A stretch of 64,000 nt of DNA, from assembly GCA_030581615.1 (NCBI GenBank), contig JAKTTT010000038.1, positions 165,843 through 229,842 on the forward strand. Reading direction: 5' to 3'. This document shows positions 11,110 to 12,299 of this stretch, piece after piece. The notes under the pieces are model-generated. The model had not been told where the DNA came from. It saw nothing but the letters and a program-made list of their open reading frames with translations, and made no database searches. Made by a program: the position numbers and the translations under genes. How positions within the stretch are numbered: the stretch's first letter is position 1; every line of letters starts with the position of its first letter. Source of the stretch: Alloascoidea africana (Eukaryota > Ascomycota > Alloascoideomycetes > Alloascoideales > Alloascoideaceae).

Positions 11110-11111
11110 TA

Positions 11112-11137
11112 ACGTAGTTCACGTGCGAGCTGCTCAC
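11112..11137 (+). repeat. Left terminal inverted repeat of the pogo element
   Basis: 26 nt starting ACGTAGTTCACGTGCGAGCT, preceded by TA at 11110-11111. It pairs with 12182..12207. Confidence 0.9.
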
Positions 11138-11201
11138 CGAATCATTTCCCACAATTCTACCAAACTTCGTACTTAAATATTGCTTTCTTCTGCCACATAA
11201 C

Positions 11202-12105
11202 ATGTCTTCAAATTCTAAAGAAGCTGATCTCCTCCTTGCCATCCAGGCTATCAAACAAGATACAAAACTCAGCATCCGGAAAGCTGCCCAGATCTACCAC
11301 GCTCCCTATTCAACACTACACACACACTAGGATGAATGGAACCCGCGCTCACGCTGATACTCTTGCTAATTCATGAGATTAAGTCTGCTAGAAGAGGAGA
11401 ATCTAGTCAAGTTCATCCTTGACCTTGGTGCCCGAGGATTGTTTCCCCGCTTCTCTAGTGTTGAAGATATGGTCAATCTCCTGCTCGCAGAGCACTGGGC
11501 TACACACTTCGTCAAGCGACAACCAGAGCTCAAGACACTCTTTAATCGCACATTCGACTACTAGAGGGCTCAACGCGAAGATCCAGACGCGATAAACGCG
11601 TGGTTTCGGCTTGTGGTGTGTGAGAGCCAAGTATGGTGTTGCTGATACGGATTTCTCAACTTGGGTCTCTTCGACACCACAGACCCTTCCACAAGCCGTT
11701 TCACAGTCTGCCTACACCAAAGATCGAACTTCCTGACACCAGAGCAGCTCTCCAACATCAATTTATGAAGCTGTTGACAAGATTGCTAAAGGAGCTCATT
11801 CTTTTATGCACCAGGTGGCCCTCCTGCGTGCTGAGAATAGGTCACTTCGTGAGGCAAATGAGAGACTGAGCAAGCGCCGGAGGGCTAAAAAGACAAGCAT
11901 ACAGCAGGGAGGAGTCCTTTCGGTAGGAGAAGGTCAAGACTTTATAGCTCAGATGGAGGTTGATAAGCAGGTAGCTCATTAAACAAGGCAATCTGGTGGC
12001 AGGTCGAGGCGAGCTGCGGCGACTGTTCGGCAATGCCGTAATTGCGGGAAAGTTGATGATAATGCGCGGACCTGTGCAATAGATGTAAAAATGCCTGGAT
12101 ATTCA
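11202..12105 (+). pseudogene. Pogo-type transposase remnant lacking the DDE domain
   Basis: The ATG at 11202 opens a psq-type helix-turn-helix (ADLLLAIQAIKQDTKLSIRK, then AAQIYHAPYSTL), interrupted by a TAG. After further stops the CENP-B/Tc5-type DNA-binding half follows (LSLLEEENLVKFILDLGARG, VEDMVNLLLAEHWATHFVKR, QPELKTLFNRTFDY, then EDPDAINAWFRLV). At about 11650 the sequence AKYGVADTDF jumps straight to STWVSSTPQTLPQAV. That skips the whole DDE_1 catalytic domain normally beginning NFDETGF. The C-terminal basic leucine-rich end is present (HQVALLRAENRSLREANERL, SKRRRAKK, GQDFIAQMEVDKQV), followed by a CRNCGKVDDNARTC zinc-knuckle-like tail. At least four stops and a frameshift mark it as dead. 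Confidence 0.88.
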
Positions 12106-12181
12106 GATAAGGGTAATAGCGAGTAGATTTTTATTGTGGTTGTGCTTTAATTGTCTGTTATATTAAGATAGGTTGTAGAAA

Positions 12182-12207
12182 GTGATCAGCTCGCTTGTGA
12201 CCTACGT
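12182..12207 (-). repeat. Right terminal inverted repeat of the pogo element
   Basis: Its reverse complement begins ACGTAGGTCACAAGCGAGCT, with four mismatches to the left repeat. It is followed by TA at 12208-12209. Confidence 0.9.
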
Positions 12208-12299
12208 TAGTTTATCGAGATTCCTTTTTTTGATAGTCTGATATGGTGTCCCCTTGAGGATCTGTCCGATGGCCGGTACTCACCCTATACTGCCTTAAT

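Follow-up and report, generated by a model that had tools for sequence, protein, structure and literature searches.

The element at the locus

The window, i.e. the whole stretch of 64,000 nucleotides from Alloascoidea africana analysed here, contains an element of 1,096 bp located between two TA dinucleotides, whose parts are listed in Table 1. An earlier note on this DNA had described inverted ends of 26 nt, identical at 22 of 26 positions and flanked by TA: ends and flanks are confirmed. The note also held that the N-terminal DNA-binding half and the zinc-knuckle tail of a pogo-type transposase are retained. Both are recognizable as remnants, the former because HTH_psq is found in a sister copy (L069), while the three translated pieces of the window copy itself have no match in Pfam, and the histidine of the knuckle is lost.

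Table 1. Features of the element; positions are those of the window, a dot indicates features without strand.
Feature	Position	Strand	Basis
TA target-site duplication, left	11110..11111	.	sequence; single-TA empty sites of sister copies
Left terminal inverted repeat, one recognition-like unit, core TGCT at 11131-11134	11112..11137	+	
CGAATCA, possible leftover second unit of another core class (GAAT)	11138..11144	+	sequence, tentative
HTH_psq N-terminal part, remnant, with a stop at its end	11203..11328	+	sequence; homologous stretch of L069 matches HTH_psq (4e-8)
N-terminal half, second part, remnant (63-aa frame)	11373..11564	+	no Pfam match
Deletion junction between 11659 and 11660, catalytic domain absent	11650..11669	+	32 of 40 aligned rows; FDETGF start retained in L060 and L069
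C-terminal half remnant, zinc-knuckle-like tail	11660..12126	+	motif named by eye; histidine lost in the window copy
Right terminal inverted repeat, core TGAT at 12185-12188 (minus-strand reading)	12182..12207	-	
TA target-site duplication, right	12208..12209	.	sequence

The nature of the lost protein is indicated by relatives found in the same genome. The homologous N-terminal stretch of L069 matches the Pfam domain HTH_psq at 4e-8 (33.3 bits, with a cut-off of 20.4), while HTH_Tnp_Tc5 was not detected by Pfam in the same piece. L016, a diverged and broken relative, matches DDE_1 at 2.6e-9 (37.3 bits, cut-off 22): by hand count, 35 residues separate its last two catalytic positions, and one catalytic D reads E. 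In L060 and L069 the FDETGF stretch, which opens the catalytic domain, is retained past the left side of the junction; the catalytic remnant of L060 has no Pfam match. Both loci are foldback-like, with inverted duplications, and in L069:887-2023 left-end sequence is found on both sides.

Copies of the family and their common deletion

The genome searched consists of 23.18 Mb in 138 contigs. At least 47 matching pieces were found with the whole element, those longer than 900 bases at 81–87% identity; this copy count is a lower bound, derived in part from contig ends, and two pieces could belong to one copy. A genome-wide scan for the end pattern, which itself contained the TA and allowed up to 3 mismatches, produced 55 matches, one of which (C2:227201) resembles a chance match, while the reversed control produced 1. 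Ten further short stretches were collected by the end pattern and by protein search: nine contain family pieces, while L084 has none at the DNA level. The MITE-like spread that had been suspected from the window copy alone, and for which a genome search with ends and interior had been suggested, is thus borne out by both searches.

Forty loci taken from the whole-element search were aligned. Both ends are available for 32 copies: 29 span 1,075–1,149 bp, while the remaining three measure only 831, 272 and 222 bp (one TA counted in each case). TA is found at both ends of 32 copies, and A+T accounts for 67 percent of the 100-bp flanks. The family therefore features what defines MITE-type elements: an absent catalytic domain, conserved ends and many copies of uniform structure.

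Seven flank pairs were inspected as related empty sites. L040 compared with L005 gives a clean empty site, with a single TA; in two more pairs (L031 with L038, L037 with L004) a single TA is kept and the gap falls within a few bases. For L051 compared with L040 the alignment is continuous across the site, with TG instead of TA. The TA is not kept in L051 compared with L045 or in L030 compared with L037, and the alignment of L032 and L023 does not span the site. An empty site for the window copy was searched for and not found.

Ten contig ends lie inside family copies (L061, L062, L064, L065, L078-L083), so that the assembly breaks at the family and some copies are incomplete. Three contig-end copies of the GAAT class (L064, L065, L079) agree at 97–99 percent of the bases in comparisons of 471 and 115 bases, a likeness exceeding that of every pair in the 31-copy interior set. 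L077:1-1125 features a truncated family end, following what appears, by eye, to be the remnant of a copia-type retroelement.

The same junction is present in 32 of the 40 aligned rows, typically as GATTTCTACAA directly followed by CTTGGGTCTC, apart from minor changes that arose afterwards. As for the others, L059 and L063 carry secondary deletions covering the junction, L060 keeps catalytic-domain sequence there, L064 and L065 end before it and L061 and L062 begin after it, because of contig ends, and L066 is truncated and shows no junction. Since the junction is common to these 32 rows, the deletion is ancestral, a single event in one ancestral element; a deletion private to the window copy is ruled out. 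The loss of the catalytic domain at one junction, recurring in other copies, agrees with what had been anticipated, and the more general proposal of a non-autonomous pogo element, deprived of its catalytic domain, is supported by the family pieces, the common junction, HTH_psq in L069 and DDE_1 in L016.

Across the common junction the reading frames of the two halves do not agree, except where another deletion of 1 nt brings them back into register. The passage from AKYGVADTDF to STWVSSTP, read by the earlier note near 11650, is correct as to the site; the in-frame join is not the state of the family, and the reading ADTDF-STWVSSTP of the window rests on a 1-nt deletion found in three rows (L001, L028, L029). 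Other frame-restoring 1-nt deletions are shared by L036, L051, L053 and L057 or, separately, present in L038.

Coding capacity and the search for a parent

Frame-restoring deletions, occurring in three forms, raise the question of whether the element encodes a useful DNA-binding protein devoid of the DDE domain, such as a repressor of transposition, so that the deletion itself was selected. Open frames joining both halves without the catalytic domain are indeed found in L051 (L051:1115-2059, minus strand, 314 aa) and in L053 (L053:1048-1986, plus strand, 312 aa), and L048 and L049 keep frames of 196 and 195 aa. A cruder codon test, where the null did not include sequence context and shared alleles were counted repeatedly, hinted at constraint: the N-half has a dN/dS-like ratio of 0.73, and stops are 29 against 45 in the N-half and 27 against 59 in the C-half.

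This hint is not sustained by a context-matched test on 31 copies, which errs on the conservative side because the observed site may itself be drawn. Single-copy changes in the N-half are 66 silent, 177 amino-acid and 10 stop, where 61.4, 181.6 and 10.0 are expected; in the C-half they are 50, 146 and 7, where 50.8, 141.9 and 11.1 are expected. Only C-half stops common to several copies are fewer than expected (2 against 6.5, P 0.019). The two long open frames, compared with each other over 310 codons, have a dN/dS of 1.41 (NG86) or 1.60 (YN00), and one or two open copies among 31 are, by estimate, plausible by chance, given the load of stops and frameshifts. A conserved DDE-less protein, as might be supposed from L051 and L053, is therefore unsupported, both by dN/dS values above 1 and by the context-matched test; the coding halves show no clear constraint, and selection of the deletion for a useful product is very improbable.

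The possible existence of a full-length parent elsewhere in the genome had also been raised. The assembly was searched with DDE_1 and at both DNA and protein level, the best candidates being scored; this revealed broken relatives and no intact transposase parent. With DDE_1, 19 matches were obtained among the best candidates scored, 13 of them in stop-free frames of at least 430 aa (L009-L015, L018-L022, L027). Seven of these frames were scanned along with L017: DDE_1 is found in all eight, Tc5 or psq are above cut-off in seven of the eight, and ABP1_N is above cut-off in one (L011); a DNA-binding domain (Tc5 or psq) passes the cut-off in each of the seven scanned stop-free frames. The stop-free DDE_1 genes have no end-pattern match next to them and therefore look like other pogo-derived genes, likely domesticated, rather than copies of the window family. 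A protein search with the read-through stretch of L016 returned 1,017 word-sharing candidates, of which none reached E 0.001, and a search of PDB sequences gave one weak match only (E 0.15). The genome features long intronless genes, no CpA-biased (RIP-like) decay and ABP1/Tc5-type pogo genes, a combination consistent with a yeast-like ascomycete.

A full-length, active parent still driving the family from within the same genome could be concealed in an unassembled interior, given the ten contig ends in copies, and contig-end copies include the most alike ones (97–99%). The searches just described point the other way, having returned only broken relatives or other pogo-derived genes, and such a resident parent is considered unlikely.

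Recombination among copies and pairing of their ends

Recombination was evaluated on 31 copies at 204 shared sites. The proportion of compatible site pairs is 0.507 for sites less than 100 bp apart and drops to 0.281 when the distance is 700 bp. Incompatibility of near sites is 0.413, against 0.605 for permuted data, and falls below all 500 permutations; the correlation between left-half and right-half distances is 0.12, where random column splits give 0.56. Interior linkage reaches background within about 150–300 bp: the dispersed copies have therefore recombined with each other. Recurrent mutation alone would not give a decay with distance, and alignment errors might inflate the apparent incompatibility, but hardly its decay. 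As copies recombine, their mean interior divergence of 12 percent is no simple clock, and caution is suggested in dating families of this kind by divergence.

The ends follow a different pattern. Each contains one or two 17-nt units, whose 4-nt core (positions 20-23) is variable; positions 1-4, 15-17 and 24-25 are near-invariant, while 21-23 are the most variable. Between copies, ends differ at about 5.9 of 26 positions, more than the 3.2 differences per 26 seen in the interior. Within a copy, the two ends differ at 3.09 positions of 26, against 5.81 when shuffled, and none of 10,000 shuffles reaches 3.09; in 8 of 32 copies the ends are identical at all 26 positions. The same core is found at both ends in 19 of the 32, against 4.8 for shuffled ends (0 of 10,000 reach 19), while 13 have unequal cores. 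Two units are present in 28 of the 74 ends read: in 27 the period is 17 nt, and in 22 both units share the same core. All four units of L048 carry GGTA, a core that no other copy has. Identical ends extend at most to about 35 nt where one unit is present and to about 51 nt where there are two, TA not counted.

The two ends of a copy co-vary. For the 10 variable positions, analyzed in 29 copies, linkage between the same positions of the two ends has a mean r2 of 0.37 (0.35-0.40 in leave-one-out analysis), against 0.037 shuffled. When the right end is replaced by frequency-matched interior sites, r2 is 0.05, with a maximum of 0.22, and none of 2,000 draws reaches 0.37; between ends and the nearest 150 interior columns r2 is 0.08. 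This linkage joins sequences 1.1 kb apart, far beyond the 150–300 bp over which interior linkage decays. It is uneven, being 0.68 at position 20 and 0.01 at core position 22, and at some positions it can be equalled by single interior sites of the 192.

Pairing could have been inherited, if a few subfamilies, founded with matched ends, had spread separately, with neither conversion from end to end nor selection for pairing. Some close interior neighbours do share their end class (GGAC in L039 and L041, TGAT in L031 and L033, GAAT in L028 and L035), and TIR and interior distances are weakly correlated (0.36); others may differ, as L043 (GGAC) and L048 (GGTA). In 19 of 29 copies the two ends resemble each other more than they resemble those of the three nearest interior neighbours, and in the other 10 they do so less. 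Among 19 end alleles private to one copy, 15 occur at one end only, as separate founding would allow, while four occur at both ends of their copy. The far weaker linkage of end sites to frequency-matched or adjacent interior sites than to the opposite end makes separate founding improbable as the source of pairing. Ends seem rather to be replaced and matched as pairs, through end-to-end conversion or through selection from several transposase specificities.

Exchange of ends between copies is also apparent. Identical sequence occurs at opposite ends of different copies: 45 nt are shared by the right end of L044 and the left end of L046, and 44 nt by the right end of L050 and the left end of L054, lengths that include the TA. 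By eye, L046 has a GAAT-type right end on the inner boundary seen in GGAC-type right ends, and a GTTC-type end is joined to a different class at the opposite end in six copies (L047, L049, L050, L052, L054, L057). The 4-nt core may tentatively be seen as an exchangeable address label: interiors would shuffle freely in a recombining pool, while labels at both ends and in tandem units would stay alike through conversion from end to end, or through the action of several transposase specificities mobilising only matched ends, so that the family would record a changing code of recognition between transposase and ends. If cores are labels, each should show a separate binding specificity. In the literature, covered through titles and abstract openings and only thinly for subscription papers, no treatment of paired end variation in pogo or other MITEs was found; paired, fast-changing ends offer a direct route to asking how transposon ends and transposases change together.

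Taken together, the window copy is very probably a degenerate member of a MITE-like, non-autonomous family of Fot or Fot-like pogo elements, which descends from one ancestral loss of the DDE domain, occupies dozens of TA-flanked sites without clear coding constraint, and consists of recombined copies with co-varying ends. As no intact transposase of the family was found, movement in trans is a step that we infer: a Fot-type transposase would have bound the 17-nt end units, moving the deleted form by cut-and-paste. Gaps left by excision may then have been repaired on other copies as templates, in either orientation, and recombination during this repair would have rewritten and paired the end sequences. 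Shuffled interiors and rewritten ends, as well as foldback loci and shortened copies, could all stem from this one process, and matched ends were perhaps at an advantage, as the only ones mobilised. A single assembly documents a deletion derivative that spreads, with no intact parent seen, and then diversifies.

MITEs derived from Tc1/mariner or pogo elements are internally deleted, with intact ends, and occur in many copies, presumably moved in trans. The window family shares deletion, intact ends and copy number; in contrast, it is long for a MITE, at 1.1 kb, and its ends, though paired inside each copy, are more variable from copy to copy than its interior. Drosophila pogo, in work by Wang et al. 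dated 1999, is said to carry at its ends a repeated 12-bp motif bound by the transposase. A repeated recognition-like unit near each end is common to both, while the putative unit of the window family is 17 nt long, occurs once or twice and has a core variable between copies.

Among yeast elements, Fotyl of Yarrowia lipolytica is described as a pogo element of the Fot1 type with inverted ends, present in one complete and one degenerate copy (PMC5014426, available in part). It is similar to the window family, by description, in type, inverted ends and yeast host; an amplified deletion family, as found here, is not described in that portion of the source. According to the accessible part of PMC7386202, Fot elements are recorded in Pezizomycotina and Basidiomycota, and the only elements recorded in Saccharomycotina are Lemi, in two species; HTH_psq occurs in Fot and Fot-like elements, TIRs are of 40–60 bp in most Fot, and target duplications are TAA in most Fot, TA in FotC, FotD and some Fot-like elements. 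The TA duplication and HTH_psq in L069 are in line with this group; DDE_1, deleted in the family itself, is seen in the related broken locus L016, with a hand-counted 35-residue spacing but with E in place of one catalytic D. Compared with the elements in that part of PMC7386202, the window family differs in being a non-autonomous, 1.1-kb, TA-flanked form, with TIRs ranging from 26 to about 51 nt and 17-nt units, of variable core, present once or twice per end.
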